Shown here: piece by piece, positions 7,016 to 42,044 of the stretch
How the letters are laid out: every line of letters begins with the position of its first letter
Position numbering within the stretch: the stretch's first letter is position 1
Source of the DNA: Isoetes taiwanensis
Lineage: Eukaryota; Streptophyta; Lycopodiopsida; Isoetales; Isoetaceae
Assembly: GCA_021234155.1 (NCBI GenBank)
Contig: JAJEKV010000027.1
Span: forward strand, 4,586,623 to 4,650,622
Direction of reading: 5' to 3'
DNA length: 64,000 nt
The notes under the pieces: generated by a model
The model's input: only the letters and a program-made list of their open reading frames with translations
Databases searched by the model: none
Told to the model about the DNA's origin: nothing
Made by a program: the position numbers and the translations under genes

Positions 7016-7139
7016 CATCTAAGAGGGCAAGAGACACGATCTCGTGAATGAGAATGATGGGATTGCTTTTGAGTGTAGGACATCTTTTGACTTGTACATC
7101 GTAAGTCTATACCATCTCACTAAGTGACCTTTATGTAGA

Positions 7140-7310
7140 CTTCCACCCTTGTCATATGAATAGAATTGTAATGTAGATAACATTAACGAAAGAGAGGGTA
7201 GTATTACCAATGAGAATATGTAAAGCACGCGTGCTTGTCATATGAATAGCAACATAATGTAGATAACATCAACAAAAGGGAGGATAATATTACCAATGAG
7301 AACGCGTAAG
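7140..7310 (+). repeat. Two-copy tandem repeat, period about 86 bp
   Basis: The segment beginning CTTGTCATATGAATAG and containing ATGTAGATAACAT and ATTACCAATGAGAA occurs at about 7148 and again at about 7234 with point differences. No gene is seen between the copia element and 8.2 kb. Confidence 0.75.
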
Positions 7311-15007: not shown

Positions 15008-17478
15008 CGTGAAAATATTTTTACCCCGGTTATTGTGATTCCATCGCAAAAAATTCCATCCCGCAGAATCACAGACCCTTCGGGAACGGGATCCGTTCCG
15101 GAGGCCCCGTTATCCGTACCTGACAGTGTCAGGTGTACCTTCTGATTGATCCCAGCCATCCATCTAAATGGTGCATCCTGACCGTCCATTTTATACCTTC
15201 CGGCGGAATCACCTCCGCAAAATACCGCGGGACGGAATCACCGCACTTTTATTCCATGCCGCAGAATCACCATCTGGAATATCTCACTAAAAATTCAAAA
15301 TTTTCACCTACTGTTCTTGTGGGAGGTTTTTCGGCTATGGCGGCTTGCTCCGGCTGGGGTTTCCTTCTTTTCTTGTTCTTGTTTTACTTTTGCTTCTACA
15401 GATCAGGCAGCATCTACAGGTTTTCAATCTTAGTTAAATCTACAGGTTTTCAATCTTAGTTAAATGCTTGCGATCCTACCGTGGAAGGAAATAGGTCGCC
15501 CATGCTTGCGATCCTGGTCCGGACCAAGAAGTGTGTTTCTCGGCCATCTTTGCTCCGGATCTTGACGCGCGAATCTAAGCAGAGGGGTGTAGAGGAATCC
15601 GCGGCATGCGGTAACGATCGAATTAATGGAGGCATTTGAGGCCGAGAGGCGCCATATCTTGATGTGGTTACTCCCAAGAAGCGAGTAAAGGGTGGATCCG
15701 CGAGGGCAAAGGGCAAGGGCGATATGGCGTCGTTGTGGGAGATCCGTTGGGTTGGATTCATGGCGCCACTTGGACGTAAGTTCCCCGGGAGGCGGGGGAC
15801 ATAGTTCCCGTAAAGCCCGCAAAAAATTTATGAACCGCATCCAAAACACATCACTTTTTATGATTGATCCCCATTTCGCCATATGCCCAAATCTTTGCGA
15901 GTCATAACCGGGCCGAAATTGTGATTTCAAGATTTGGGTTCCCGTGATTTCTTCCCACTTCTTCATAAGGATGATTCTATACTTATGTTTTGGATCAGAA
16001 ATGTGGATTTTAAAGCGATTGGGCGGAAGCGTAAAATGAACGATGAGGCGTAGCTATGGCGCCCGTAAATTTGCTGATGGTTGAATCGAATATTACCAGC
16101 CCGGGGCCTTTTTTTCCTCCTCCTTCTATGCATCTTTCCCACAAAATTCATCAAATGATCATCAAAGTCGCTTGGATTTTGCCATAGCCGGGAATAACAT
16201 TGATTCTTCCCTTTGCCGAAAAAAGTAACCTAGGAGATTGGAATTCCATCTTGCAAGCATTGGAAGTCAAGGCTCGGAAGGGCATTGGGCGTTAAGCTCA
16301 TAGGTTTTAATCCTTTTTGCCATTGCCTTTTACTCCAACCGGGCTATTTAGTTTTATCTTGATTAAGAAGAGCTACTGGATTGAGGCAAACGAAAAGATG
16401 AAACGAGGAGAGATGGAATCGAAAATACCTCAAACCTAGCACACACACACACACGCCCCTTGCTTCTTTGCACCTAATAACCTTTATTATGAGTATGAGA
16501 GGCATGCCCAAGAGTATGGAAATTTTCGGGATTAAACAGATTTTGCAAAGATAAAACCGGTTTTCGGTCCCGTGGTTCTCGTGAGGGGCCGATCCGCCTC
16601 GGAGGTTCAATCCTCCATCCCAAAGAGAACATCCTTCATTTCTTATTGCCTTAACAGGGTTATGTATGCTTAGCTAAACCATCCCGAACCGGTTTCTATG
16701 GAATCAAAGGAAATTCATCTCGAACCATTTTCTATGGAATCAAATGAAAATTTTGGATTGAACCATGGTAATTTTTCCTCCCCGTGGCCCCGCCTTTTGT
16801 AGACGATAGGTCCCGAGCGATTTGAAATTCCATGGTGATTCCACCTGAAGGAATATTAGGGTATGTGATTCTACCAAGAATATCTAAGCCACGGTGATTC
16901 CACGGGTTAGAATATCACAAGAAATGTGATTCCATCCGCGTAATTACAAGTTGTTGGTGATTCCACTTTATTTTTCACGAGGGTGATTCCACCGCGGAAT
17001 TTTACGGACGTGATTCCGCCAGGGGTTTTTCACCATGGTGATTCCACCCGGCGGATATCAAGGTGATTCCGCCCCGTGGAATAGGGAGGTTGTGATTCCG
17101 CCCAAGAATAACACGATGGTGATTCCATCTCACGAATCGACGCTTGATTCCATCCGGCTAATAGCAAGGTGGTGATTCCGCCCGCGTAATAACATGAGAT
17201 TGTGATTCCGCCTCGCGGAATAAATAATACCGGCCAGATTCCGCCCGTGGAATACATGAGCGGTGATTCCATCTCGAAGAATCATAAATTGGTGATTCTA
17301 TCTGGTGGAATAGCAAAGTTGTGATTCCGCCGGAAGGTATAAATGACCTGAAAGCGACCCTGTCAGGTACGGATAACGGGGGCTCTGGTACGGATAACGG
17401 GGTCTCGGCCTGGTGATTCCGCGGGATGGAATTTTTTGCGATGGAATCACAATAACCGGGGTAAAAATATTTTGTTCC
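15008..17478. mobile_element. 2.47-kb TIR element, MULE-like, with GTGATTCC-rich interior
   Basis: The ends are inverted repeats: both contain AAAATATTTTTACCCCGG followed inward by TTATTGTGATTCCATCGC and, further in, CCGTTATCCGTACCTGACAG and TTTATACCTTCCGGCGG, so homology extends about 200 bp with indels. The 10-bp target duplication and long TIRs fit a Mutator-like element (usually 9-11 bp). No transposase is visible; it is non-autonomous. The interior 15450-16700 has a 168-codon open frame on minus and short plus-strand coding-like pieces (for example around 15660-15720) that may be captured gene fragments, but I recognise none. Confidence 0.8.
16834..17340. repeat. Array of about 18 GTGATTCC(A/G)CC units
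   Basis: GTGATTCCGCC or a close variant recurs about every 28-30 bp, usually followed by a GGAATA-type half-site (for example CGCGGAATA, GGTGGAATA), so each unit can form a small hairpin. The same motif is part of the element's terminal repeats. Units are degenerate, spacing is irregular and there are no unique spacers, so this is not a CRISPR array. Confidence 0.8.
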
Positions 17479-18356
17479 GCACAGGTGGGCCAATGTAAAT
17501 GCCTTTGTTGCACAGTAAAGAAAAATTAGAATGTACACTTTATTTTTATATTGAAGAGGTCACTTTCATCTTGCATTTACACTTTATTTTTATATTGAAG
17601 AGGTCACTTTCATCTTTCATTACAGGATATATTGCACAACAGAATAATGAATTTTCTGAATAGTATAGCTTAACACATTTCAGGTGGGCCAATGTAAAGT
17701 TGCTGTACGTTCCAAAAGAGGGAATTTTGAATTACAGGTGGGCCAATACAACAACAAACAAATTAAATCACATTGCAACTAAAGAACACATGACAGAATT
17801 TTTCTCATTACACACATGCTTTGAAGATCACATCTAATTTTGGATTGAAAAAAGCAAACTGAAAATGCTTCAAGAGCATTCATGCAATAAAATTAAAACA
17901 CACATTAGGGCGGATTTGGGGTCTGAAAATGGCCCTTATCTTGGGCTAAAGATTTCCACGTCAGATTCGCCAGGACCAATCAGGTTTGCGCCTTTTTTAC
18001 GAAAGTCAGTATTACTTGGCATGTAGAAGGATGAGCAGGCTTACTTGGCATCCACATGGCGTATTTTCATAGGGGATGCCTGCGCTTTTATTGCAACCAT
18101 TTTAATGGCCCGTATTTTTCGAGTCGCCACCGCCCAAAATAATGGTGACTTTGACCCTCCACCGCCGTCACCAACTCCCTTTGTCAAATTTTGGCGCCAA
18201 ACTTCACATCTTGTCACTCCTCCCACCTCTACGTGCATCCTCTCCGCCCTCACTCCTCATCCGCAATCCATGTCTCCTGTAATTTCGTGTGTTCTTGCCC
18301 CATTTACGTAACTCCCAAGGTCAAGAAGTGGGAGGTTTTGTCTCAATAGGTTCGGG

Positions 18357-18593
18357 GTGAGTATGCCGCCATCAACGAGGGCGCATATAGAGTTAAGCGA
18401 CAAAGGCGATCGACGCGTATGGACACATTGGATAGGTAGGATAAAAGAGTTCAAGTTGAATTCTAGCGCCTGGAAAGTGGAAAGTATAACAATACGACAT
18501 GCATATACCCCTTCCGATATGGCCAAAGAGCTAATCTCCACCAAAAAACAAATTTTCCCAAAATTGCCCGCAAATGGTAACCACCTTAAAACG
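18357..18593 (+). CDS. Unidentified ORF fragment in the 13.6-kb element
   Basis: An 80-codon open frame ending just before the first GATCACACGACGC hairpin, with no family similarity that I recognise. Its position directly before a hairpin is the same as for the other gene units of this element. Likely a relic; no intact start context is evident. Confidence 0.25.
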
Positions 18594-18662
18594 GATCACA
18601 CGACGCCGGGCTAGTCAAGCCGACTACTTAATCTGCGTGAGATAGTTTCGCGTCGTGTGATC
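18594..18662. repeat. Hairpin element, arms GATCACACGACGC (copy 1)
   Basis: Perfect 13-bp inverted arms at 18594-18606 and 18650-18662 enclose 43 bp. This is the best copy of a short hairpin family that recurs between ORFs throughout 18.6-31 kb. Confidence 0.85.
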
Positions 18663-19580
18663 TTCTTTATCTTTTCATTTCTTTTCGTTGACACGTGTTT
18701 ACAAACAAATTTATTGTGCGGGTTTATGTTTATCGACGTCGTGGATGTCATTCCGCCGAAAATTATTAGTAGTGTACTTGTCGTGGTATCACATAGACAT
18801 CGGAATTGTCCTTTTCAAAGGTATGGATGCCGCGGACCTTGCGGGTATAGGCATCCGGTTTTACTGACATGATTATAACGTAAAGGTCGGAAACCGAGCT
18901 TGAGGCCTGGTTGAATTGCCCCTTTAAGTGAACTTTGTAAGCCACGGACTAATGAGAACAATGTAATTGCAATGAAGAAATGCATGGTCGACGAGGTGCA
19001 AGCTGGAATGTCCAAAACGGAGGCGCGAGGATGAGTTTCAAAATCTTCACACCGCTTGAGGTATTTGCTAACATATTCCGGATATGGCGCAGAAGTTCAA
19101 AAGTCTCAAGACATATATACGCTTTCTCCCCCCATTTTGTGGATGGCTTATTTTTGGTTCCGACTGGATGTTCGATTCCACGAATCATCCGGGTCAACTA
19201 ACAGAGGTCCGCGTAGTTAAGTCCTCCTTTAAGTTCGGATACTTTTATAATCGCTTAATTGTCAACTAGAACGAAGGAAACAAAAAAGAGAGGTTGCACA
19301 ACTTTTTGGGAGCCGCTTTGAGGACCATAACGCACACTCCGGCGCGGTGGATATTCGAGTATGGAGAGGGGAGGAAGTCATTTATACACGCCACCATGGA
19401 AAGCGAATGGCCATTATCGAGCTAAGAGTGCTAATGGAGACAGGAGATTGTCGACTTCCATTATTTTATTGATGGCATTAGGGTTGGTTACGTGCAAGAG
19501 GGAAATGTAAAGTTTAGTGAGTTCGCGATCAACAAGAAATTGTCTATCGGCTAGCGCTTTGAATCTCGGTTTTTTATTTG
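18663..19580 (+). pseudogene. Unidentified coding relic in several frames
   Basis: Open stretches in shifting frames, such as 18980-19201 and 19084-19269, plus a later one encoding FHYFIDGIRVGYVQEGNV near 19460-19510, suggest one gene broken by frameshifts. It lies between hairpin copy 1 and the H3-like gene. I cannot assign a family. Confidence 0.3.
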
Positions 19581-19739
19581 TGTTTTTGTCCGATGTTTTT
19601 TTTTAGGGTTCCGTATTTTGTCCGATATTTTTTAGGGTTCCGCATAATTATTTAAAAACGTTACCATCATATTTTACTTTAACTTCGCTTTTTACTATTT
19701 ATCTCTTGCCGGTTGTCTATTTTTGTCGGTGTTTCGTAG

Positions 19740-19746
19740 TATAAAG
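19740..19746 (+). promoter_or_regulatory. TATA box of the H3-like gene
   Basis: TATAAAG 27 bp before the ATG at 19767. The spacing leaves almost no 5' leader, unlike ordinary plant histone genes. Confidence 0.5.
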
Positions 19747-19766
19747 CGCCATCCGGCCGAGAAGCC

Positions 19767-20628
19767 ATGGCAAGAACTAAGCAAACCGCAAGGATCCATC
19801 CGTGTGGTGTAAGGCCGGTGATTACATTAGTCCGCCTTCTTCATCCGACTCAAGTCTTTGATAGAGATTCTCCTCCTCCCACCATGCCTAACGTAAGACC
19901 CGGAAAAGAAATCCGCATGACGCATCTGGGCGGAGAAGCGCCTCCGGAGTAAGTAGGGAGGTGCACTCCGGTTGAGACGAGGATGAAAATGTGAGAGACC
20001 GGCGAGCGTAATATGACGCGGATTAATTATTGGGCAGCCGCCTCTTCTTGCTCTTCCCTGCCCTCCCTGCTCCTCCCGTGGAGGTGCCGGACCTTCAAAT
20101 CAAAGGAGGAGGCCCAACGCCGTAAAGGGAAGGCGACTCAGAATGTGAGGAGACGGCCGGAAGAGTCGGCCGAGGAACACCGCAGATGCTTTGGTGAGGA
20201 GGCGGCCGAAGAGTCGGCCGAGCAAATGTGCTCCAAATGCCGGGTGGGTGAGGGTAGTGGCCTAGCGGAAGACGGCCCCAGCATTAAAGCTCGCGAGATT
20301 AAGAAGTATCGTAAGAGCACTAAGATGGTCATTCCGCCTCCCATTTGCCGTGCTCGTGAGAGAGATTCTCAAGAGTGTGGTGCGATACATCATACCGCAT
20401 CATAATTCAAGCAACCGCCTTAAATGCTCTTCAAATGGTTTCGAAGCGGTTGGTGTCGGGCCTGTTCGAGGACTCGCAGCCTTTGCAAAGAATACATGCC
20501 AAGCGGGTGGATCATGTCATGCCCAAGGACATGCGCCTCGCCTTACGATAAGGGATCCCGAGTACTATGGTCAAAATTTTATGGCTGAATACAACAAGAA
20601 GAAAGACCCCCCAGAAAAAAGGCCGTGA
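19767..20628 (+). pseudogene. Histone H3-like gene, frameshifted, with C-terminal extension
   Basis: The ORF at 19767 begins M-A-R-T-K-Q-T-A-R, identical to the canonical H3 N-terminal tail, and then diverges. Downstream, at 20289 onward, AREIKKYRKST corresponds to the H3 alpha-N helix motif REIRKYQKST; from 20351 LVREI matches the start of alpha-1; from 20426 ALQMVSKRLVSGLFED, IHAKRV and MPKDMRLALR match alpha-2 and alpha-3. These pieces lie in three frames, so at least two frameshifts occurred, and about 300 bp of Glu/Arg-rich unrelated coding lies between tail and fold. After the H3 end (RIRDPE) the frame continues for about 20 residues to a stop at 20628. The divergence, inserted segment and tail extension are unlike a host replication-type H3. 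It could be a captured, fast-evolving host H3 variant or a virus-type histone. Confidence 0.75.
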
Positions 20629-20763
20629 AGTGCCTTTGTATTTTTTTCATATGTATAATATTTCTTAATGTAATGGCTTTATAAGCTTAATCTCTTAGTC
20701 CATTTCTTTCTTAGAAGCCTAGCTTCGCACTTTGTATTTTTTTTTTTTAATGTTATACGTGAG

Positions 20764-20830
20764 GATCACACGACGCGCAGCAAGCATTGTGCTTTTTTGT
20801 TGCACATAGTAGTCTTCGCGTCGTGTGATC
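20764..20830. repeat. Hairpin element, arms GATCACACGACGC (copy 2)
   Basis: Perfect arms at 20764-20776 and 20818-20830, located about 135 bp after the H3-like stop codon and directly before the telomere-like repeat. Its loop (TTTTTTGTTGCACATAGTAGT) resembles that of the copy at 29636. Confidence 0.85.
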
Positions 20831-20833
20831 CAA

Positions 20834-20858
20834 CCCTAACCCTAACCCTAACCCTAAA
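20834..20858. repeat. Short (CCCTAA)n telomere-like repeat
   Basis: Four tandem CCCTAA units (TTAGGG on the other strand). Land plants typically have TTTAGGG; the hexamer is the animal/fungal and some-algal type. It immediately follows hairpin copy 2. Confidence 0.8.
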
Positions 20859-20984
20859 ATGTACGGACAAATCTCCCCACAACGGCTGTGTCCCCTTTCA
20901 TAATCGACAACGGCTACTTGAGTTCAAAAGTGACAGCGCCTTACCGCTCCTAAACATCTTCTTGTTTTCGTCGTTTGCTTCGCC

Positions 20985-21420
20985 ATGGATTGTTATGTGA
21001 AGTTCCTGGAATGGTATGCATCCGCCCCTCATGACAACGAGGAAGTTAAGGCCGACCGCGATTTATCCGTTCTATTGCAAGGAGTTGGACATCATGGCAA
21101 ACGAAAGAGCGAGCTTGGATGCTATCGCGAGGTTGCCTTAGCTTTCACCCGACCGCTTGGTCTCAAATAAGACGCCCTTTGCGTGATGTCCCCTCGCTCG
21201 TGGATTCCAAAACCAGCTCTAGAGGAGGCGGCTTCCCATTTGCAAACAGGGAAGATGTTTTTCAAGAATGCTGCGCAACGGGCTCCTCCTGGCTGCGTCC
21301 CTTGTGCTTAAGAAGGTATCTTATTTCTCTTTGCCGCTTGCATTTGCTAGTTATTGCATTCTCGCCGCTACCAAACCGAAGATACACCGAAACAATGAAA
21401 TCTTTAAGCCAAGGGGGGGT
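20985..21420 (+). pseudogene. Unidentified ORF remnants after the telomere-like repeat
   Basis: An ATG at 20985 opens a 61-codon frame followed by overlapping open stretches in other frames up to 21433. No family is recognised. The context (a hairpin upstream, acidic ORFs downstream) suggests one decayed gene. Confidence 0.3.
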
Positions 21421-21425
21421 CGGTT

Positions 21426-21644
21426 ATGTGTGATGATGCCGACTATGACATAGAAATGGAGATAGATCTACAAGAAGAAGAGCAAGAATGTAGGAGTTTT
21501 AGCTTCGACGACCGGCCTTGGGTGAACCCGGAGGAGGGAGATGATTCTCAAGGTGATGAGGATGGGGATGAGGATGAAAAGAAGTTGTCCGACATAACGC
21601 CAATTTTAGTGGAAGGCAAAGAATACTTATTGCTAAGGATATAA
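21426..21644 (+). CDS. Acidic ORF, 72 aa
   Basis: Very Asp/Glu-rich (QEEEQE, PEEGDDSQGDEDGDEDE) and ending VEGKEYLLLRI. The next ORF (21670) begins shortly after in another frame, so the two could be halves of one acidic, chaperone-like or chromatin-binding protein. Function unknown. Confidence 0.35.
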   Translation: MCDDADYDIEMEIDLQEEEQECRSFSFDDRPWVNPEEGDDSQGDEDGDEDEKKLSDITPILVEGKEYLLLRI

Positions 21645-21669
21645 TTGAGGAACCCGCCTTTGTTACTTA

Positions 21670-21933
21670 ATGTGTGCTAGGGAAGACGAGCTTATCAAGA
21701 CCTTGGCCGAATGGGTAAACTTAGGCCTAGATTTTGAAGAGGATTTGGACAAAGAGATGTTTGAAGTGTCTAATTATACCGGCAATGCTATAAAGCTTAA
21801 AGAAGCCTATGAGAGGCTGGAGTCTCGATTTGCTCAAGATGAGGCTAATCTACCAACGGAAGAAGAATTCCAAATACTCGGTGCAAAGCTGCCAACAGAT
21901 CTGCAGTTTGGCGTGCCCTTCACCAATCAATAA
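21670..21933 (+). CDS. Acidic helical ORF, 87 aa
   Basis: Helix-rich sequence (EDELIKTLAEWVNLG, LKEAYERLESRFAQDE) with no family match from memory. It follows the acidic ORF by 25 bp in a different frame. Possibly the C-terminal half of the same ancestral protein. Confidence 0.35.
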   Translation: MCAREDELIKTLAEWVNLGLDFEEDLDKEMFEVSNYTGNAIKLKEAYERLESRFAQDEANLPTEEEFQILGAKLPTDLQFGVPFTNQ

Positions 21934-22002
21934 AGATAAGCCCGGTAGATGAGGATAAATGTGAAGAAGATAATCTTGAGGGTTCTTATTTGTGGGAAGT
22001 AG

Positions 22003-22384
22003 ATGATTTTTCTTGCCGACATGCACGCTGGGGACAGGGAAAGATTGAAGGACTCTACATTGTTACGATATATCTCAAGATTCGCTAATGGGGAGATAAT
22101 CATCTTCAGCCAAACTTTCAAATCCAAAAGGTGCGAGTTTGTCTATTACATCCGTGCATTATGCATGTTCGGGAACCATTCCCAATTGGCATCAAACACC
22201 GAAAAGGGTGATAGCAATTCGGTATATGCCAGATGTTGTGTTACAATATTTTGACGACCAAGCCGCGGCCTCATGGGGCGAGCAATATGTTAAATTTTTA
22301 GTCACCGGCTTGACTCACCCAAGGTTGGAAGTCAGGTCGATAACATGGAAGTCATTGCCTTGTTGGATCGGTCGCAGGGATTGA
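22003..22384 (+). pseudogene. Unidentified two-frame coding remnant
   Basis: Overlapping open frames at 22003-22254 and 22139-22384. The second ends with a well-formed stretch (RYMPDVVLQYFDDQ, GLTHPRLEVRSITW). Probably one gene with a frameshift near 22200. Not recognised. Confidence 0.3.
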
Positions 22385-22628
22385 AAGAGCATGAAATTGA
22401 CGACGAAGCTTGAGAAATTGGAAGTTATATGTTTTCCAACTTGTATCGGTAAAATTATTTATGTACGATTGTCCTTCCAAATTCCTAATAAAAATTATTT
22501 TATTTGTATTTATTCACATCAAGCCAAATACATCACCGATTTTCTCATCATATCTAGGTTTTCGCCGTCGGTGATATCTATCTCAAGAAATGAAATATTA
22601 TTGGAAAAAGACAATTAATTTATTTATT

Positions 22629-23260
22629 CCTCACACGACGCCGAGAAGCAACTCGTGACTCATGTTATAAATAGAAGACCGATGTCCACGCCGACCTCCG
22701 ACGCCTTCCGCCTTACGCTCATCTTCTACTTCCCGGCTTCCACCTTCCACCTTCGCCCGATGGCATCATCATCTTCCTCTAGCAAGCGACCACGCCAAGA
22801 TAGCACTCCCCAGCCCCCGTAGCTTGCCGGGACATCACCCTTGCGCAGGTGATGAAGAGATTCAAGGAGATCCATGATGAAAACAACCGCCTCGTCCGCC
22901 GAGAACAATGAGGTGGTCGTCGCAGATTAGCCTTCACGAGGGAGGCTGGCCGCCAGACGAAGGACGCTTGAGCTTGTGGAAACATTCGCCATGTACCAAG
23001 AGGCTTAATGAGCCAGCAGGGGCGAGGTGTAGCTTGAAACCGCCACATGATTTCGCGAGCCTTAGAAGATATGGAGAAGAAGCCCGAAGTCATGAGGGAT
23101 GAGAACGCTGCCTTTACGGGCCAAATGGGCAGACATGAAAATCAGCTAGAGGATCATGAAGATCCCTAGCCGTTGTATCTATCTATTTTTGCTTCAAAGA
23201 AAAAGTTTTCTATTTTTTGCTTCTATCTATCCCGTTGTTCCAATGTATGTTCTTTTATTA
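22629..23260 (+). pseudogene. Cassette 1: TATA box plus Ser-rich/coiled-coil gene, broken
   Basis: The unit begins with a TCACACGACGCC half-hairpin (22629) and has TATAAATAG at 22664-22672, then a CT-rich leader and ATG at 22760 encoding MASSSSSSKRPRQ. A later frame encodes MKRFKEIHDENNRLVRREQ (about 22853-22910), a coiled-coil segment. Stops and frameshifts interrupt the rest. The 3' region has GTTGTAT and a T-rich CAAAGAAAAAGTTTT stretch shared with cassette 2. This is one of four tandem paralogues. Confidence 0.55.
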
Positions 23261-23275
23261 AAATATCACACGACG

Positions 23276-23340
23276 CCAAATGCCTTGCTTGCAATTAGGT
23301 AGCAATCAATGGATTTCGGCGTCGGTGATCTCCATGCCAA
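23276..23340. repeat. Hairpin family copy 3 (degenerate)
   Basis: TCACACGACGCC at 23276-23287 pairs with GGCGTCGGTGATC at 23328-23340. The interior GCAATTAGGTAGCAATCAAT is shared with the copy starting at 24172. Further partial copies lie around 23437-23447, 23491-23503 and 23541-23552. Confidence 0.7.
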
Positions 23341-23540
23341 ATCCTATTTTGCTTCAATGAGAAGTTCTATCTTTAGTTATGTATCAAGAAAATTACTTAT
23401 GTATAGATTGTATCACCGAAATTATCAATAAAAATTATCACACGAGCTTTCTCGAAGAAAAGACGTTAGAAGAAGTAACGGTCCTTTTTTCTCACACGAT
23501 CACGGTAACGGTCGATTTTCCCCGACCCACGGTATCCTTT

Positions 23541-24171
23541 TCGTCGTGTGACTCAAGCTACTACGAAATCCCATTATAAATAGAAGACCTTCTATCTTGC
23601 CTTTCCGACCTCCGATCCTCTTCCGCCTTCCTCCTACGCTCATCTTCTCCGCCTTCGCCTTCGCCTTCCGCCTTCTCCTCAGATCCTCTTAAAGCCTTCC
23701 GCCCTTCTCATCTTCTCCCCCTTCCGCCTTAAGTCTTCTCCTCCGGTGGCATCTTCATCCTCCTCCGGCCAGCGGCCGGCCCAGGTGCCCAGCGGACATC
23801 ACCCTTCTTTGTGGTGATGAAGAGATTCAAGGAGGTTCACGACGAAAACGGCGTCTCGTGTGCCGAAGATGGAGGCGGTGGGCTGATTAGAATTCACGAG
23901 GGGTCTCCTTGATGACCGAGACCTTGAGCTTCCTTGCGGTTAACCGGTGCAGAGGCCAATAGTCGTAGGGGTCGAGGCGATTTTAGCGCACACAATATTT
24001 TGGCTTAGAAGATATGGAGAAGAAGCTTCGAGCCATGAGGATGAGAACGCAGTTTTTGGCCAGCCTACAGTGATCATGAAGATCCGTAGCCATTGTATAT
24101 ATATTTTTGTTTCAAAGAAAAATTTGCTCTGCTTTTGCTTCTATCCGCTCTCTTGTTTTGTTTTATTAAAA
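23541..24171 (+). pseudogene. Cassette 2: paralogue of cassette 1, start codon lost
   Basis: TATAAATAG at 23575-23583 is followed by a CT-rich leader, then GTGGCATCTTCATCC where cassettes 1 and 3 have ATG (ATG to GTG). The coiled-coil segment MKRFKEVHDENG follows near 23817, and ARRYGEEA-like and CAAAGAAAAA 3' sequences match cassette 1. It is clearly a duplicate with several frameshifts. Confidence 0.55.
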
Positions 24172-24252
24172 GATCACACGACGCCGAAATGCCATTCTTG
24201 CAATTAGGTAGCAATCAATGGATTTCGCGGTCAGATGATCTCCACAACGTAC
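24172..24252. repeat. Hairpin family copy 4 (left arm intact)
   Basis: GATCACACGACGCC at 24172-24185 is intact; the right arm is degenerate. The interior matches copy 3. It follows the T-rich 3' end of cassette 2. Confidence 0.7.
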
Positions 24253-24559
24253 ACCTCGCTGTATGTATAAATTCATAATTTATTAATGGAAAAGTATATG
24301 TAACACAAATATCTAGCTAGATTATGTGATAACTTGCGGGTAAATGCTAATTTACATGTGGATGACAACGCCTATTCACATACGTGGCTTGTGGATGACA
24401 ACGCCATGCCAAGGACGTGGCATCTTGCCGCCACAATAACATCACCGTTTTTTACGGCCCGCATACAAGATGCGGCTGGGATATGACGGATCCCATGATG
24501 CGAACATAGGCTACCGCTGCCCAATTGCATGCTATAATTTCGCCTCGTGGGATTATTAC

Positions 24560-25180
24560 ACAACTTTATCGGTACTTCATAACCGTAGATTCCAATGTAT
24601 CTCTAGTTTCTATATAAAACGCCGAGGCCTTTGTCTTCTCCTATCCGCCATCTCCTGTTCTACCACATCCGCCTCAGCCATCTCTCCTCCGTTCTCCCAT
24701 CACTTTCAATGGCCTCCAGCTCCAGCCCCATCCCCGCCGAGATCTTGTCTCAAGTTTTGGTCAAGGAAATTCGAAACATTCGTGGCTTTGTTTTTAGAGG
24801 AACGGATCCGCCTTCTAAAAGAAAAAAAAGAATGATGAAGACGCCGCCAAGCTGGTTGGCGGCAGAGGAAAAGGCCGCCTTCTACGTGGAGGTGATTTTA
24901 GTGCCGATAATCACCGGGCTGCCTTAGACCGCCAATTGCGCGCCACGCAGATATAACCTCCAAGAGAGGCTTAGGGCCGCAATCGAAGGGAGAGGCTGCC
25001 CGAGCCCAACTCGATGAGCTGGAAGATAAGGTTGCGGAATATGAGAACGTGGTTGGCGGGCGGGCAATCATGTTGGAGGAGGAGCAAAAAAAATCACCGC
25101 CCTCCGTGAAGAGCTTGCCCCGGCGATCATAGGCATCGGGCTCCTCCTAGAGGGGCCCGCTTTTTTTTAATGTTTGTAAT
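24560..25180 (+). pseudogene. Cassette 3: Ser-rich/coiled-coil paralogue
   Basis: TATAAAA at 24612, ATG at 24709 encoding MASSSSPIPAEILSQVLVKE, then Lys-rich sequence to a stop at 24927. Further coding-like sequence (ERLRAAIEGR, ITALREELAPAI) continues in other frames to about 25160. The arrangement of TATA box, leader and MAS-S start matches cassettes 1, 2 and 4. Confidence 0.5.
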
Positions 25181-25429
25181 TGGTTTTATTTCTCAATGGG
25201 AAAAGTTTTTGACAAATGTGCCAATATTACGTTTCCTATTTTTAATTTTCAATATCCGTGGTAGAGAGAATGACAAGACAGATCACACGGGCAAACCCTT
25301 CATAGGGTTTTAAAGCTCGTGGTGCGATTTCAGCGTCTTTGTGATATACAAGATGTAGTTAGAATAGTTATTAATGTGTTCCAAATGACAAGCATTCATT
25401 AATGTTTCTAGCGGACAACCGACGAATCC

Positions 25430-26047
25430 GGGACACGCGTCGACAATGCAAAATGAAAGTGTGTTTAATATGTTCAAGCGCCATATGTATAAATTGAGGT
25501 CCTTGCATTGTGCTCCTTCCACGGTTAGAGTCTTTGCTCCTCACTTCTATAATCTTAACATCCCTCCCATTTGTCATCTATGGCCTCCACATCCTCAACC
25601 GGCCGATAATGGAAAACGCGAGAGGATAGAACTCCCTTCCGACATAGTGTTGGGTGTTCTAATGAAGAGGTTGAAGGAGCAAGATGATCTTCTAAAGGAA
25701 AACGCCGCTACAATTCAGCGTAAAGAAGAAGACAATGAATTCAACCTTCTCATGCTTCGTAGAGCGTGAGAGGCAAATCAGCGGTTGAATAGAAGGTCGA
25801 CAGATGACATGCCCCAACAACCGTGACCGAGGTGGTTATGACGGCAACGAGGATGCTAATTCAGCGTAAGAACACGCTGTGCTATTGGGACAGAGCGGAC
25901 ATGTACAAAGAGATGGTGGACAGATTGGAGGAACGTTTGGATAGGGTGATTGCTCGCTTGAGGGGAAGAGATGAAGACGGCGACGAGGACCGAGCTGATG
26001 ATGATGATGAAGATAATGAAGAAGAGCTCGCGACCGAGCAACAATGA
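25430..26047 (+). pseudogene. Cassette 4: Ser-rich/coiled-coil paralogue with acidic C-terminus
   Basis: TATAAATT at 25488, ATG at 25580 encoding MASTSSTGR and then a stop; a second frame encodes SDIVLGVLMKRLKEQDDLL (compare MKRFKEIHDEN in cassette 1). The ORF 25823-26047 supplies a coiled coil (MVDRLEERLDRVIARL) and a strongly acidic tail. A GTTGTATTTTG 3' sequence follows, then a CTTCACACGACGC half-hairpin at about 26131 and a second at 26199. Confidence 0.5.
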
Positions 26048-26276
26048 GTCGTTGTATTTTGTTTTTCAATGTAACATCTTTCACAACTTTAATCAAAAGT
26101 AACCCTTTTTATTATTATCTTGTAAAGCTTCACACGACGCTGGCCACATAAATGCAAGCAATAGCGAACTCCACTTTCATTACCAGATGATACAAATAAG
26201 ATCACACGACGCCAAGCTACAATGGTAAACAAGGTTGGAGGCAAGTACTTCAAGGTCGTGGTGAACATGCTACACA

Positions 26277-29000
26277 TTACAAGTATACTTTACCGATTCT
26301 TTGTCTCTTAGATCTCCACCGCTGCGATGCTAGTGGGGCCCTAGAATTTTGCCAAGCAACTTTCCGCTTTCTCTTCAAATTATGCCAATGGTGTTTACGA
26401 CTTGGGTTGCTCCTTAAAGTGACCTTCTTGTCGATGTTTAGCCATCGCCCTTCTATAAAACCACTCATTATCCTGTCTTAGAGGGTTGGTTCCCACATTT
26501 CCACCCCTCTTTGAGTGTTACGATGAAAGGCTATTTTAGCTTGTTTATGCGACTTCTCCATGCCTTGTGCACTCCACAATCGCTAGGCTTCCATACTTCC
26601 TAAAAAACAAGGTGCATGAGCCCAAAAGATGTGCAAGTAGTGCGGACTTCACTCTCTCCCCATGCGTCTATGAAAGCTTTAATAAATTTGTTATTCGCTT
26701 GCAACGAACATTTCTGCATCTTCTCTTTGTGAGGTCCATTCTCTCGAATGTATGGGAACAATTCGCACAATGCATCCCATGCTTTTTTTTTCCTCAATGC
26801 CGAACGAACGCATCATCTCAGGCGTCCTGCTTCCGCATCAACCAGCAATTTTCCAAATTCATAGACCGCTTTCTCCCATCCGGTTTCCGCTCGAGCCCTC
26901 TCTATGATTCTTTATGAAGGCCGAGCTTTCACCCCCAATTGACACCTTTACGAGGCACACTTGTTCTTCCCCGCCTGCTTCTCATCGAAGCTCTAATCTT
27001 ACATTGCCACCATGCAAACCTCGCTTCGATAGAACATGTTCAACTCTACCAATTCCTTCCTCTCTTCTCTTCTTGTCTCCAAATGTTCCACACAAATCTG
27101 CAGCTCAAAAATATCATCTTGTCGATGATTCTCACAAAGCCGCAAAGTGCGATATGAACCCTCTCTAATGGAATGGGGAAAATGCCATGGAACTTGGGAT
27201 CTTCTTCTCCTCTATTAGGAGCATTTGCTTGGTTAAGGGACAAGGTTGAAACAGTCTTCCCCAAGTGCTTGACTTCCTTGCATGATTGCAAAGATGCATA
27301 ACTTTTGCATGTTCCTTGTCCTCCTCCACTTATGTTGTACATTGCTTTCTCAGTTTTTAAATCAGACGCCAAGTGAAAATTACTTTGTAAGATCCATAGT
27401 GATCTACTTGCAATTTTTCCCTCCCTCGAATCTAGATATTAGACTGGGATGTCAGTTTGATTGAACACCCATTTCAATACCTGGGGGTTTTTTTCTCGAA
27501 CTTTAAAGAGACCTAACCACCGTGTCATCTTCGATTGACATGAGAACCATTTTTCCGCAAGACGCTTCTTCTCCTCGTCCACACCTCTACATCTTTTTGT
27601 TATTCTTGTTGCTCTTTGATTTAGCATGTGCAATTGCATTCTCAATTGCTCTATTCATGATGACAACGGATACCCTCTCATACTTCTCAAACTTGGTCGG
27701 GTTCCATTTCATCCAATTGTATGCAAACTTCAATCTCACCATTAGTTTCTCGCAATCGTTAAGTCATAATATTTGACAAGGAATTGTAAGAGAGTAACCA
27801 GGTCAACCCAAAGATTATTATGCGCTCATTCATTCCAACTATATCACAACAATCCTTTCCATTCTTATCTTTTATGGCTATGGCGGGACCAAAGACATTC
27901 AACGTGGTGCATCTCTCCTAATATGGCATACACCATCTTTGTCCTAGTAACCCTTGTATTCTCGACAATTTGTGGACGTGGAGCTAATACTTTTTGTGCC
28001 CATTCTTTTCAACGCTTAGTGGAATGGCTTGAATAGAGAACGGTAACCAAGCCCACCGATGCCTACATCATCACAAACAAATCTGTACATCCTTCGCTTC
28101 TAACTTCTTGTAGATCCCCCTAGTACCATTTCCAATACCATCTTCTTGAGAGGAGAGTTGTAGGGTCGACAAATCATGTCCACTATCTCCCTGCTCGTCG
28201 CTAGGTTCTTCACTCACGTAACCAAGATTGCTTCTAGTTTCCCGGATCTTAACCGACCTTTGCTAGTGTTGTAAACGGACCTTGTGACCGTGACCTGCGT
28301 CTGAATGCACCTGATCCAAACTTCAGTTCCTCTATCGGTTAGATAATGCTTCTTCCTTTCTCGCAAACCAAGGGGTGTTTTCTTCAAATTCTTTAACCTA
28401 CATTGAAGCCCAAAGTTTGCTCTTTTCGAGCTCTTGGATCTTTTCTTGCAGCTGCCCTATCACCAATTTGGACTTGTCCACTTCAGATCTCAAAGAAGTT
28501 TCCCTCCCAAGCCGTCATTCCTTTCCTTCATCCAAAGTGGAGTAATGAAGCGAGAGAAAAAAGTCACTTGGTTTAAGTTATAATTCTCTTTGTGACAATC
28601 GGAAGCTCATCTCAAGGAACTCAGATTCGATTCAATGCCTTCATCCTCTCAATCTCTCACAATATCCCAAGAGGCCGAGTTACCGCCACCACAAAATCGG
28701 ACTAAACTTGAAACGTCCCAAATGACGGTTTCTTGCCACTCAACGGATCCAATGGATATAAACCGCCATCCGCCCGGATGTCGACACTTTTTGAGCACGC
28801 AATATGCAACATGTCGAGGTCTAAGTTCTTATTTTTAGACCTCCTTTTTGCGATTGAAGACTGGAGCATATTCTCGAGTCGGGTTGGATCCTTATCCACA
28901 CATCATTTGGAGCTTCCATACCAAGTGGATCGCATCGGCGCCGAAATGAATGTGTACAATTTGTATGTCCCAAAGACAATTAGAACCGCTTTGAGGCTCA
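26277..29000 (-). pseudogene. Large minus-strand coding relic (about 2.7 kb)
   Basis: Open stretches in alternating frames run continuously on minus: 28899-28702, then a coiled-coil piece (SKLVIGQLQEKIQELEKSK, about 28490-28400), TEVWIRCIQTQVTVTR and SPLKKMVLEMVLGG (about 28350-28100), 27645-27439, 27372-27046, 26797-26600 and 26468-26277. Between them I can follow similar amino-acid texture across frame changes, so this looks like one large protein gene with many indels. It is convergent with the cassettes. I do not recognise the family; a replication, transposition or structural role cannot be excluded. Confidence 0.45.
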
Positions 29001-29010
29001 AATCCAGGTA

Positions 29011-29525
29011 CTAACCTCGTTTTTGAAATTTGCAACGTGCATATGGAAATCGAAAAGTCCATTCTCCTACAATCCATGCTTTTATACAAAAAGCAAATTC
29101 AAAATTCGAATTGTAGGGGGGGAAGCCCAGTATTGGGATGAAGTAAAGATCCCGACATTTAACTTTTAAGGCGCTAATCGCAAAAACGAAAAGTCTAATA
29201 CAAAGCTTCAACCTACACATTCAAATTTTGAAATGTAGAAGGAATGGACTCTAAATGAAAATAGGGCAAGACAAGAATCTATGATGCGCATGATTGGTAT
29301 CCGACAAACCAAGAGACACCGCCATGAGTTGCCCGATGCTATAATGCAAGTGGCTTTTTAGAAGCGCCCACGTGTTAAGGCCAATCAATCGACAACAAGA
29401 GAATTAAATACATATGGCCATAGATATCACGATTCCCCTTATTCCGGAGAATATTTCAAGCAAAATCGACCCGGAAAAAAAGGGGCGGAAATATGACGTG
29501 GAATGGCTGATAGGAGGCCATTTTA
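29011..29525 (+). repeat. Direct duplication, left copy (truncated right end of the 13.6-kb element)
   Basis: This segment matches 31000-31490 at high identity, including TTTTGAAATTTGCAACGTGC and GAAATCGAAAAGTCC, and both finish with GACGTGGAATGGCTGATAGG. The left copy stops at GGCCATTTT, exactly inside the 32-bp terminal repeat, and lacks the outer 20 bp. Confidence 0.85.
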
Positions 29526-29635
29526 GTTCATAAAACATAATATAACTTGGAATGATAGATATTTTATATGCAAATGGGAGACTATTGACGAGGGACTTGT
29601 GTTTAATTTTAATTTGACAACAAATAAGAAAGTGG

Positions 29636-29703
29636 ATCACACGATCTTGAATTTAGTGTGTTCCATTTTTGTTGCATATGTACTATTAAGCTTGGTGTGA
29701 TCC
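29636..29703. repeat. Hairpin family copy 5
   Basis: GGATCACAC at the left and GGTGTGATCC at the right, with TTTTTGTTGCATATGTACTATT inside, homologous to the interior of copy 2. A further half-copy (GATCGCACGACG) lies at about 30915. Confidence 0.75.
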
Positions 29704-30217
29704 TTGAAAAATAATATGCTCTTTGAAAAGGGATAATGACTTATGTACTTAAGAGTGGTAACACATGTACAAGAAAAAAAAGTTAGGTATTCAAATGGAA
29801 TTAGAAGCAAAAACTTTTACATTCAAAATTTTTATGGTCAGATGGCTTTACATCATTTTGTAAATTTAAATGCCCTGAGGCTTCAACTATTCACAACAAA
29901 AAGCCCTGAGGCTTGCAAATATATGGTAAGAAGTCGGAGGCAAGCTCGACTAAGAACAAGGAAAAAAAAAAAAGAGGTGCTCGCCTCCTAACAAATTTCA
30001 TTCATCCGCTTCACCATCCGCAAAAAAAAAATAAGAAATAACCGCTAGTTGAATGCTTAAGAAAAGAAAGAAAACATGCATGTACCATGAACTAACGCCA
30101 TGAGCTCCTCAAGTCGCAGATTCGCCTTCAACTTCTTCATCTTCTTCATCATCTTCGGCTTCTTCTCCGCCGGTAGACCACTCATTTTCATTTCAAGAAT
30201 CTCCTATCCAAAATTCT

Positions 30218-30418
30218 TCAAGAACACTGTGATGAACTCCCTCGCCAAATTTCCTCCGATTCCTCATTCTCCGATTCCTCAAAAGGAATCGAGGAATCGA
30301 GGCATTCGTAGCAAGAACCGTGGCGGCGGAGGGAATCGGAGGGAACACCTCTTCCAGCCAGTAATAGGCGCCTCTTGGAGAACACCTCCCATTTTCTCTT
30401 AGTAGCTGATCTCTTCAT
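30218..30418 (-). CDS. Short basic ORF between the duplicated ends
   Basis: A 66-codon minus-strand frame beginning MKRSATKRKWEVFSKRR and ending in an acidic Ser-rich tail. It sits in the 1.4-kb segment between the two duplicated element ends, so it may belong to a later insertion. Not recognised; the overlapping plus-strand ORF (30100-30402) is equally open. Confidence 0.2.
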   Translation of the reverse strand: MKRSATKRKWEVFSKRRLLLAGRGVPSDSLRRHGSCYECLDSSIPFEESENEESEEIWRGSSSQCS

Positions 30419-30594
30419 GGCGATGGACTAGAGAAATTGGGCTGAGGATCTAGCGAAGATTGGGCGAGATTGGGGGAGAATGGGCCAATCTAGGCTGGAA
30501 TAGATATAGGCTGGATTAGACGGAAAAATCGTAGGGAATGATTCAGTATTCCAGTCCTATCAACCATCATTACATGCCATTATGTGCATATCTC

Positions 30595-30715
30595 AAATTT
30601 GAGCCATATCTAATATCTTCCGCTTTTAACCTTATACCTAAATATCCAATATCTTCCTTTTTAACCTTATTCCTAAATATCCAATATCTTCCTTTTTTAA
30701 CCTTATTCCTAAACC
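30595..30715 (+). repeat. Three-copy 36-bp tandem repeat
   Basis: AACCTTATTCCTAAATATCC plus AATATCTTCC repeats three times with few changes. Confidence 0.75.
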
Positions 30716-30999
30716 TATATGATTTGAGTTTAACCTGAAAATGAACACCGATATAATTCAATTTAACATACTATTTAATACCAAGATGCTACGTCACACT
30801 ATGTCGATAATTGGGATTTAAAAACACTCCAAACCCTCCTCGAGAAAACCACGTAAGTGCCGAATTTCACTTGTGTTTAAGTTTAATTTGACAACAAGCA
30901 ACTTCCATATCGTAGATCGCACGACGTAAATCAAGGTGTGGTATTTTTATGCCCCAACACAATTAAACCTTGTGAGAGCCTAACGTCGGTATTTCTAAC

Positions 31000-31490
31000 T
31001 TCGTTTTGAAATTTGCAACGTGCACATGGAAATCGAAAAGTCCATTCTCCTACAATCCATGCTTTTATACATTAAGCAAATTCAAATTTCGAATTGTAGG
31101 GGGCGGAAGCCCATTAGGATGAAGTGAAGATCGGTTAAAAGCGCGCGGCCTTGCAAACCGAAATGAAAGTCCGACCGATACAAAGCTTCAACCTACACAT
31201 TCAAATTTTGAAATGTAGAAGGCGGTGGACGCCAAGACGCTTACCAAGAGACACCGCCATGAGTTGCCGGTATGCTATAATGCAAGTGGCATTTTAGAAG
31301 CGCCACGTGTTGCATCAGTCCGTCTGACAACCAACAGAATTAAATACATATGGTGCCATGAATGTGCAATCCCCCTTATTTCGGAAGAATATTCCAAGCA
31401 AATCTGTAATTATGAGAGTTTGGTATCCTAGGTGGCATGGGAAAAAGGGAGCGGAAATATGACGTGGAATGGCTGATAGGAGGCCATTTT
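31000..31490 (+). repeat. Direct duplication, right copy
   Basis: Matches 29011-29525 and continues into the intact terminal repeat of the 13.6-kb element. Small indels distinguish the copies. Confidence 0.85.
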
Positions 31491-31534
31491 CAGACCCCAA
31501 ATCCGCCCTAATGCAAACTTAAAACTTTGGATTT

Positions 31535-33093
31535 TTAAGGATTCAGAAGGCCCTTGTCCTGCATATATTTGAAAATGGTCCGACGCAAGCAATTACCTTC
31601 TCTTCGTCTCCTGCTCTCCCCTTGATTAATGGCACCACCACCATAGATTGTCACATTACCTTCTACACCTTCTTCCTCGCCATTCAATTGCAGAAAGTTG
31701 TGCAACACACAATATGCAATGACAACTTGTAGAGCAAACGGCATACTAATAGGCATGTCCATGCAAATTTTCCATCTTCCTTTCGGGTAAAAGCATGTTA
31801 GGGTGTACCACTTTTGGAACCTGCAAAAGTACATACACTAGGTACTTCAAAACTGGGTACTTTCTCATTTTTCTTTTCATTAAAACTAATACAAAAATCC
31901 AAAATACAAGTCAAGGACATGGTAATATTCAAAGTTAAGATAAAGATAATGCTATCGGAGACTAACATATATATAAAAAGTTCTAAAACATACCTTATAT
32001 TGAGATATTATACAAGTACCCAGTACCCAGTCCTGGCTACCTTTTTAGGTACTTTTTTGGTCACTAAATAATACTTTTTAAGGGACACCCTAACATGCTT
32101 TTACCCTTTCAATAGAGCGAATGAATTTTCGATGATCACTCTTATCTGTGACAATCTTCTTGAAAAAATAATATCCTCAGCAGTATCATTAGCTTTCCTC
32201 CTCCGAACAACTAACATAAAGGATGATGCAGGATAGCCAGAGCCACCAAGAATATACGGTTTCATTCTAATACCACGAATTCTTCTAATTGGTGAAGCAA
32301 GAATTTGTCTAGTTTGAAGCTTACCGTAAAGAGGAGAAGTGTGGAAGTGGCGAGTGTCATGTGATCCACCTGGTGCATCGCAGCATACGTCCCAGAATAT
32401 CTTACCAGCATCACACACTGCCTGTAACAAAATAGAATGGAAGTGATGACGACACCAATAATCTGCTGGAGTATACCTTGCTGCTGGCTTGTGACGGAAT
32501 GGAATGTGTGAGCCATCTATGACACCAGCCACATGTGGCACTCTAGGTATGGACTCAAATTCTTCCATGATAGACTACAACCTGGCACCGTCAGGAGGTC
32601 TAATGAACTCATTCCTCAAATTTGTGGCCAGTATCTCCACTATAATTCTAGTATATTTATGCACGGTTGAGACACCAAGGGCGAACAATTGGGAACAAAC
32701 AAAAGTTTTTGAGTTATGAGCAAGACGGAAAATCACACAGGCTAGAGCTTGCTCTTTGTAAACAGGTTCCCTTACCCATTCTTGAGGATCTGCTTCTGGA
32801 ATATGTGGAGCCACTAATTTGAGCAAAGCCTCAAAGTTTCGTGCACTGAAATTGTAATTGCCTGCAAGACCGGATTCATGCCACAAGGAAGAGCTCACCT
32901 CTTCCCAGAAGGCGATCTGCCTTGGATAGACCCAATATTCCCTGGTTGTGTTGGAGAGCACAGAGAATAGAATTATGATCCAACTCAACAAAATTTGAAT
33001 CACAACACCTACAAATTGGTCGAACTCATCATGATCAGAAGACTCATCCATCAGATCTAGATCATGGAATAGAGGTAGATGACCCTCTGCCAT
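31535..33093 (-). pseudogene. PIF/Harbinger DDE transposase, inactivated
   Basis: The likely start is the Met at 33093 (MAEGHLPLF), giving an N-terminal part to an amber TAG at 32575-32577, then a second part in the same gene (MEEFESIPRVPHVAGVIDGS...) to 32104. GVIDGSHIPF holds the first catalytic Asp. The second motif, normally GDSGYP, reads GGSGYP: codon 32244-32242 is GGC (Gly) where GAC is expected. The Glu-containing block IENSFALLKG-RWK is split by a 322-bp MITE at 31785-32106 and resumes at 31780 with RWK..LHNFLQLNGEEE, ending at 31535. Stop, catalytic loss and insertion make it dead. The Asp change alone would abolish cut-and-paste activity. Confidence 0.9.
31785..32106. mobile_element. 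322-bp MITE with 22-bp TIRs inside the transposase
   Basis: The ends are perfect inverted repeats starting GGGTAAAAGCATGTTAGGGT. The flanking TTTC at 31781-31784 and 32107-32110 is a 4-bp target duplication. Removing the element plus one TTTC restores the uninterrupted codons for LLKGRWK, which proves the insertion boundaries. The interior is AT-rich and non-coding. Confidence 0.92.
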
Positions 33094-33251
33094 GTGAATT
33101 CGGGCTGTTTCAGATGGCTCCGGCTGTGAAAAAGAAAGGCAGGTGATGAATTGGATGGGTTTTCTCCACAACTGATCGGCCGATTTTATACTGCTGAAAG
33201 ATTTTCAGCAAAACGGCACCTGGCAAAGTACGATTCATGTGAACACGTATT

Positions 33252-40739: not shown

Positions 40740-41990
40740 TTGGGTGGGGTTATGTTTCTCAAGCCGCCATTTGAACAATGGGATTAGCAGATCGAGTGGT
40801 TTTGGTGCCCTGTTATATAAAGCCTACTAAACCTGTAGGGTTTAACTTTTCAGAAGGCCAGAGTTACCCTAGGACACACTGTTTGAGGCCACCGTTTGAT
40901 TGCATGGTTGTATTTCGAAGGCCAAAGTTACCTAGGACACATGTTTGAGGACCAAAATATTGATCGACGCCATTGCCGAGTACATGTTGGGTTAAAACTA
41001 GCACTATACAAAGAATGCAAAGAGGCAATTAGTTTCCCTTAGCAACCCGTAGCAAGTGTAGCTTTGATTGGCTAGTCAAGGAAATTGGTCCTTGGGTGAC
41101 TTGGATGCTTTGGAATAATGCATGAAGCCAGATCCATTTTGGAGCTTGCTAGTGTAGCCGCACTGGCCAAATGCATGTTTTTGGATCATGTTCCTACATT
41201 AGAAAGGGGAGAATTTGGGATTAGGTATCCGTGCGATAGATATTTATTTTGTATTTTCAAGATTTCATGGGGCACGAGCTACCATTTGAACCGTGAGATT
41301 AGCAGATGGAGTAGTTTTGGTACCTCAATAAGTAAACCCTACAAAATCTATAGGGTTTAGATTTAGATTAGGTTTAGGCTTTGGTAGCCCTACCATTCTC
41401 TGAAGTGGACGTAAGCTCTTGTGCATAGTTTCCCCAAAGCTCCCACGAGAGACGTCAAGAAAATTCCAAAACCCTCCCAGAGAGCCCGCTGCCTGTTCCA
41501 TAGCACACTAGATAAAAAGTGCATTGAACGAAAGGTCAATTAGTTGGCAATATATCGCGAGTATCTTTGTACGGTTGGTCATGAAAATTGGTCCCTGGGG
41601 TAACTTAGATACCTTGGACTTATGTGAGCGGTCAAAGCCGTGTTTCGAGCTCGCTAGAGTGGCTGAATTGGTCCAACACACCATTGTCCCTCATGTCCCT
41701 ACATTGAAAATTGGGAGTTGGTACATTCATTTTCGCGTTTTCTTTTTGGGGATGCTACGAGCTAGCACCAGATTTGTGTGCCCTTGCACTAGCACGACTT
41801 GCAACTACAAACTGTCCAACACACAATTGACATCAGCATGTTTCATACTCCATATCTTTGTTATGTGTGGAAAAGAAAAATATTTGTCACTTACAAATAT
41901 GTATTTTTATCACGGCTTTTAATTTCTAATCTTGTCATGCATGGCAAAATCTATTCACATTTGTCACCCGTGCAAATATGTGTGCTAATT
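40740..41990 (+). repeat. Degenerate tandem array, period about 510 bp
   Basis: Markers recur in order: CCATTTGAAC..GAGATTAGCAGAT..GTTTTGGT near 40768 and 41280; TATAGGGTTTA-type near 40835 and 41350; GAAATTGGTCC-TTGG near 41079 and 41583; GAGCTTGCTAGTGTAGC near 41141 and 41648; TTCCTACATT near 41189 and 41696. Two to three diverged units are visible. Confidence 0.75.
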
Positions 41991-42044
41991 TAAAAAGTGG
42001 TTTTTTTTTGCGAGTATGTAATGCATTCAACACTTCTTGCCTCC

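Follow-up and report, generated by a model that had tools for sequence, protein, structure and literature searches.

RAG1-type transposases are best known from animals. In PMC12730594, the CMCT clade (CACTA/EnSpm-Mirage-Chapaev-Transib) is described together with Plavaka, ESTA and Lanisha, and three ESTA families are reported to carry an anti-silencing gene, TET/JBP; PMC4411706 gives the relations among Transib, Chapaev and RAG1, and CCAGG as the example of a 5-bp target-site duplication for TransibSU. Here we describe an element that resembles these systems in the lycopodiopsid plant Isoetes taiwanensis, at positions 17903–31513 of a 64,000-nucleotide (nt) stretch of contig JAJEKV010000027.1 (forward strand, 4,586,623–4,650,622), hereafter the window. 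The block is one copy of a young, abundant and dispersed giant transposon. We consider it highly probable that the locus as a whole is explained by a young, high-copy, 13.6-kb transposon with a transposase gene of RAG1-like fold, likely mobilised by cut and paste between its 32-nt repeats. Direct observation covers the element's ends and the count of their matches across the genome, ten more copies in this length class, the homology of the transposase and the cargo.

The element is bounded by two 32-nt arms, at 17903–17934 on the plus strand (CATTAGGGCGGATTTGGGGTCTGAAAATGGCC) and at 31482–31513 on the minus strand, which are exactly complementary, as an earlier note on this DNA had stated. A 27-nt core of these arms has two matches in the window, both at the element ends (up to 3 mismatches; shuffles gave 0). 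In the genome to which the window belongs (1.66 Gb, 1,110 contigs), the same search returns 873 forward and 888 reverse matches, whereas the pattern written backwards returns 0 and 0; the resulting 1,761 is a count of ends whose pairing is not established, equivalent to ~880 elements if all were paired. Among the 100 genome matches listed, we took the ends of 20 neighbouring plus/minus pairs, 15 of which are spaced 13.2–13.8 kb apart and the others 5.4, 15.5, 18.5, 24.3 and 29.7 kb. The 5.4-kb pair (G000 C907:3778091-3783451) is likely a deletion derivative, and the pairs 15.5–29.7 kb apart, on contigs among C801, C907, C919 and C22, are likely larger or nested copies. In all 21 sampled copies (20 fetched and the window copy) the core is preceded by CATTA at one end and followed by TAATG at the other, and the terminal repeat is therefore 32 nt long with CA..TG termini.

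Ten full copies, taken from pairs spaced 13.4–13.7 kb apart and aligned to the window copy, show 4.3–6.5% mismatches and 265–549 gap openings. All ten share a common interior, and the alignment is nearly full-length in eight; C668 and C907b align over 10.7 and 8.7 kb only (L055-L056, L061-L062), so that subfamilies may exist, and C668 shows 69% identity to the transposase family protein P0001 over residues 2–92. Of the origins that the earlier note had offered, the giant DNA transposon is thus the right one, in view of the 1,761 end matches and the interior common to these copies, and a one-off composite is not borne out. The right end is doubled over ~600 bp, a feature absent from the earlier note, with an inner copy at 28913–29524 and an outer copy at 30902–31490 (both plus strand) that are 72% identical with many gaps in a self-comparison; the inner copy stops inside the terminal repeat. 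In the left end, upstream of the first cargo gene, lies a palindrome, TTTGGCGCCAAA (18190–18201), which we take to resemble an E2F site.

The element carries a RAG1-type transposase gene on the minus strand at 26283–28285, frame-broken in the window copy and with an N-terminal end that is not fixed. Among the family proteins listed, 119 of 120 match this strand of the stretch, in 249 tblastn high-scoring pairs. The 2.7-kb minus-strand coding relic noticed earlier is therefore real but recognisable, and the accompanying statement that the block holds no recognisable transposase falls. The predicted fold of the family, an RNase H fold of RAG1 type, corresponds to RAG1 residues 460–948, and the region of the catalytic Glu aligns with RAG1 by sequence (P0001). 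In the window copy the D, D and E pieces are all readable, in different frames of the minus strand: the first D at 27690–27731 (QLDE), the second at 27319–27381 (SDLKT) and the E at 26505–26573 (QGMEKSHK), the last preceded by an H(4)H piece at 26598–26648 (HIFWAH; HILYAH in P0001). A C(2)C motif follows the second D in the family (90/92 and 89/92 for its two cysteines), the second of which is not readable in the window copy. The three residues were assigned by motif and by the P0001–RAG1 alignment, the E not being placed by structure. Around the catalytic Glu, the frame reading VECTRHGEVA was rejected and the correct piece is SAQGMEKSHKQAK; the 513-residue search query held pieces around the wrong choice of frame. 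A Pfam scan of 20 family members returned RAG1 in one (0.0038) and no other family of the clade.

Several observations weigh against this assignment. The transposase frame is not intact in the window copy, and searching with the two transposase queries yields a single clean match in none of the 11 copies. No family record examined has all three catalytic residues together; the two D come from P0017-like proteins and the E from P0001, whose model is poor in the E region. Family profiles, nearly empty in the E region, find no RAG1 in the PDB by sequence (one of two such searches gave no match, the other one chance match at 0.65). Aside from these points, the path score of the stretch, −93.6 over 2.7 kb, is no better than those of four flank controls of 2.7 kb each (−88 to −169). 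Scans of viral contigs and of a collection of genome contigs found no relatives of the family.

With the CMCT clade the element shares a RAG1-type transposase, the C(2)C of its family, the H(4)H between the second D and the last E, and 5'-CA..TG-3' ends; it differs in lacking a consistent 2–5 bp duplication and in its 13.6-kb length with many cargo genes. It resembles the RAG1/Transib elements (HzTransib, BbRAGL) in its predicted fold and the alignment around the catalytic Glu, whereas its termini begin with CATTA and no 5-bp duplication is seen. The rust-fungus ESTA elements and Lanisha, compared by description only, have EnSpm/RAG1-like transposases of the same clade; unlike ESTA, the cargo here is H3 and not TET/JBP, and a TA duplication is not supported. 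Because the fold, H(4)H and termini are present but no clear duplication is, we class the element as a RAG1/CMCT-like variant without assigning it to a named superfamily. It could yet be Lanisha, the subject of a Repbase report and presumably of moss origin. Among the matches listed for Lanisha, only PMC12730594 concerns transposons by title, and for RAG1-clade elements in land plants the literature searched offered nothing beyond that article's mention of Lanisha. CACTA/EnSpm was rejected, as CACTA termini and a 3-bp duplication are not found (CATTA in 21/21 copies, 3-nt flank matches in 0/21), and so was PIF/Harbinger, which a neighbouring gene had suggested: its DDE_Tnp_4 match lies outside the repeats, and the transposase inside is RAG1-like.

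The flanks beside the 32-nt repeat match each other over 0 nt in 11 copies, 1 nt in 5 and 2 nt in 5. In copy C920, joining the flanks without an extra base gives an open frame of 216 amino acids (aa) with the junction after residue 108, which matches RVT_1 (1.4e-25; residues 1–111, spanning the junction) and RT_RNaseH_2 (2.6e-7); because the bare join restores an open frame, this insertion left no duplication. We infer that the element inserts without target-site duplication as a rule. To our knowledge, no RAG1-type transposase is known to insert in this way. Two points count against the rule: C920 is the one clear empty site behind it, and 2-nt flank matches occur in 5/21 copies where even base use would predict ~1.3, so that a short duplication is possible in some copies. 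At a second candidate empty site, no tRNA was found in any version of the joined flanks.

The histone H3-like gene (19767–20628, plus strand) combines a MARTKQTAR-Ile tail, a long inserted linker, histone-fold pieces in three frames and a C-terminal extension. The similarity to H3 lies in three frame-broken pieces at 20280–20548 (E 2.6e-8), in agreement with the earlier proposal of such a gene; the MARTKQTAR start at 19767 alone reaches E 0.45, and the H3 piece had no match in the protein database searched or in the PDB. In 11/11 copies a TATAAA precedes the start, which reads MARTKQ(T/S)AR and then Ile, His and Pro, and histone-fold-like pieces occur at E values up to 1, several with internal stops. 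Three copies (C35b, C907b and C919b) share a common open reading of ~50 residues from the Met. A frame slip of one copy was ruled out as the source of the Lys9 change, because the Ile is found in all 11; by eye, the change could reflect two bases lost from the codon for Lys9 in an H3 gene of the family's ancestor.

An H3 in which Met or Ile replaces Lys9 is able to inhibit H3K9 methyltransferases, and in plants dimethylated H3 Lys9 (H3K9me2) and CHG methylation reinforce each other. We tentatively propose that the Ile9 H3-like protein is a decoy against the host H3K9 methyltransferases, by which the element would escape silencing. Against this, the tail past residue 9 departs from H3, and the protein may therefore not enter chromatin. 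That one RAG1-family transposon should both break the H3K9me2–CHG loop with an inhibitory Ile9 H3 and insert without target-site duplication is a conjunction that we regard as possible but doubtful. The TET/JBP fungal transposons and the Vandal anti-silencing elements likewise carry genes against methylation-based silencing, according to PMC12730594, whereas the candidate tool here is an altered histone. In the literature searched, which leaves most subscription papers outside, no title or abstract on transposons was recognised as reporting one that carries an H3 gene.

The remaining cargo, all on the plus strand, begins with a frame-broken gene for an acidic protein of unassigned function at 20985–22413 (no Pfam match better than 0.16), whose path scores −5.0 along 1.43 kb and includes 9 frame changes and 1 stop, against the −88 to −169 of the four 2.7-kb flank controls. 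A tandem set of four small genes follows. Gene 1, of coiled-coil type (22760–23180), and gene 2, with an ambiguous start codon (23745–24100), are DNA repeats of each other (71% over 517 columns); gene 3 (24709–25160), whose MASSS.. start is similar by eye, and gene 4 (25580–26047), read by eye, were not matched in the BLAST self-comparison. The element holds seven TATAWAW-type matches, four of which precede the tandem genes (22666, 23575, 24611 and 25488). Allowing up to 3 mismatches, the hairpin arm GATCACACGACGC matches the window 21 times versus 6.6 expected; 15 of these matches fall within the element. Folding gives z below −3 in 6 of 11 stretches and does not reach it in the other five; these six inter-gene hairpins lie at 18594–18662 (arms GATCACACGACGC; z −5.65), 20764–20830 (with arm matches; −6.77), 23264–23331 (−3.74), 24172–24242 (−3.35), 25281–25345 (−3.27) and 29635–29702 (−3.75). 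A repeat scan places a telomere-type repeat, (AACCCT)4.3, at 20832–20857 on the plus strand, and a run of at least three units stands near the same place in 10/11 copies. The TATA-led small genes, recurrent hairpins and TTAGGG-type repeat of the earlier note are thus all recovered. Pfam gave no named function for cargo proteins other than H3 and no match for two minus-strand frames of the element (two of its six frames), and Rfam and tRNA scans gave no result.

The frames of these genes are broken in a manner that probably points to the assembly. CAG/CTG occurs 144 times in the window element versus 350 expected (0.41), while the flanks are at 0.97 of expectation. Gap openings and mismatches stand at 107:96 in two within-element repeat pairs versus 48:156 in ten flank pairs (p 1.3e-9), a contrast that is milder under BLAST settings (62:141 versus 36:199); transitions and transversions are 47:49 versus 97:59 (p 0.049). 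No trinucleotide is less conserved than CAG/CTG (37%) in eight copy–window alignments, where its middle base is prominently lost or changed. The 23 columns split between CAG/CTG and CGG/CCG peak at 5/9 copies, whereas 28 control CpG columns are U-shaped across copies (small numbers and no statistical test in both cases); the peak therefore fits independent per-copy error rather than inherited change. Over the 11 copies, successive 50-bp bins hold 20.0, 61.8, 34.5 and 21.8 CAG/CTG per kb at the left end and 38.2, 0, 20.0 and 54.5 at the right, versus 13.4 in the interior. In the eight alignments, gaps make up 1.0% of columns in the outer 200 bp versus 5.6–6.1% elsewhere, and mismatches 2.5% versus ~6.5%; short reads anchored in the unique flanks would extend about this far. 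Nanopore basecallers are known to fail at methylated CCAGG/CCTGG, which in one benchmark accounted for ~70% of the consensus errors made with default models (PMC6591954). Miscalling at CAG/CTG sites, rather than age, probably explains most of the apparent decay, and this goes against the description of the block as decayed.

The alternative, that the breaks are true decay in a family that is old or mutated at CAG/CTG and CpG, with all sampled copies dead, we consider unlikely. It would accommodate the lack of a clean transposase match in any of the 11 copies and the CpG-type changes (CGG to TGG, CGA to TGA) that are also common between copies. It would also accommodate two observations that weigh against a calling artefact. 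A Ty1/copia element next door (1913–7015; intact 1178-aa frame, long terminal repeats identical at 313/315 positions), young by its repeats yet CpG-poor (CpG observed/expected 0.15), shows no CAG/CTG loss, and an artefact therefore requires that it be unmethylated at CHG or better polished. Five of the eight invariant CAG/CTG sites lie deep inside the giant element, 2.6–6.7 kb from the nearer end. Apart from decay, the scarcity of mismatches in the outer 200 bp could equally reflect constraint on the ends. True decay is difficult to reconcile, however, with copies that differ by 0.99% at A/T-flanked sites with agreeing flanks (36 pairs) yet carry hundreds of gaps, with middle-base losses and swaps that are not deamination (CAA/TAG in 2 of 28 CAG/CTG fates in the two within-element pairs), with the higher CAG/CTG density of the outer 200 bp, or with the start of the H3 gene, near which the same sites read cleanly in some copies and are garbled, in several different patterns, in others.

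Plant transposons are well known to capture genes, and it is quite possible, if somewhat short of probable, that the cargo, H3 included, is captured host sequence without function for the element. The H3 fold split by frame changes in the window copy and the lack of a named function for the other cargo proteins fit this idea; nevertheless, colinearity of the cargo extends along almost the full length of 8 of 10 copies and over 8.7–10.7 kb in the other two, and the H3 start, TATA box and ARTKQ(T/S)AR-Ile tail are kept in all 11, a retention that is weak evidence for selection because the copies are young. Small genes with their own promoters, inter-gene hairpins and a histone gene also resemble some large DNA viruses. 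An integrated or decayed virus, one of the candidates raised earlier, is nonetheless extremely unlikely given inverted ends with a transposase between them and their 1,761 genome matches: the transposase is the only enzyme recognised, the scanned pieces showed no recognisable viral gene, though the genes are frame-broken, and scans of viral contigs with the hairpin, the end patterns and the transposase family gave no relative. The invariant CATTA/TAATG flanks would also follow if the repeats were 27 nt long (GGGCGG..) and the element always inserted into the 8-bp palindrome CATTAATG with a TA duplication, as in the fungal ESTA elements, which have such duplications and RAG1-like transposases (PMC12730594). 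We first favoured this reading, which was weakened by these same flanks in 21/21 copies and by the C920 empty site, and now find it quite improbable. It needs CATTAATG as the target in 21/21 copies, and the reverse-transcriptase site is without it; every reading of the C920 flanks joined through CATTAATG, TA or CATTA had more than two stops, and 5'-CA..TG-3' is the usual terminus of the CMCT clade (PMC12730594).

For a giant transposon with 32-nt repeats, we envisage the following. The transposase would bind the CATTA..TAATG ends, and the element would be excised in the RAG1/Transib manner and then inserted, apparently without target-site duplication. Each cargo gene would form a small, separate unit of transcription led by a TATA box of its own, and the shared hairpin near the 3' end may act as a terminator or boundary. 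CHG sites of the element would be methylated by the host, and its genes would look broken because of CAG/CTG consensus errors in a long-read assembly. In the least certain step, the Ile9 H3-like protein would bind and stall H3K9 methyltransferases, which feed CHG methylation in plants, and silencing would be escaped.

Other parts of the window are also poor in CAG/CTG, at 7.0–7.5, 15.5–17, 41–42.5 and 60.5–61 kb; the patches at 7001–7500, 41001–42500 and 60501–61000 are possibly CHG-methylated repeats miscalled alike. A second inverted-repeat element at 15012–17473 (outer arms of 61 nt, 98% complementary) has a CpG observed/expected of 1.03 and is CAG/CTG-poor over 15.5–17.0 kb. To the right of the giant element, minus-strand pieces of a PIF/Harbinger-type transposase occupy 31535–33204 (DDE_Tnp_4, 9.5e-19 at 32101–32574). 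A further Harbinger-like open frame, recognised by eye only, ends ~20 bp outside the right end, and the giant element therefore seemingly landed beside or inside a Harbinger gene. Two open minus-strand frames at 33644–34866 end in a tyrosine recombinase-like manner by eye; Pfam gave a value no better than 0.047 (DUF3701, phage integrase), and a PDB search found no related chain. The window also contains a BAHD-type gene (Pfam Transferase, 5.1e-22), which, with the copia and Harbinger genes and a fern hit, accords with a plant host.

A multi-gene plant relative of the RAG1 elements, its ends matched at 1,761 places, offers a wider setting for the study of the ancestor of V(D)J recombination. 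It also carries a caution, as elements that appear decayed in long-read assemblies may be intact and miscalled at methylated CAG/CTG sites. Histone mutants with lysine replaced by methionine or isoleucine are used to block methyltransferases; if our proposal is true, a transposon H3 with Lys9 replaced in all copies sampled would be their natural counterpart, and an anti-silencing role for it would become directly testable.

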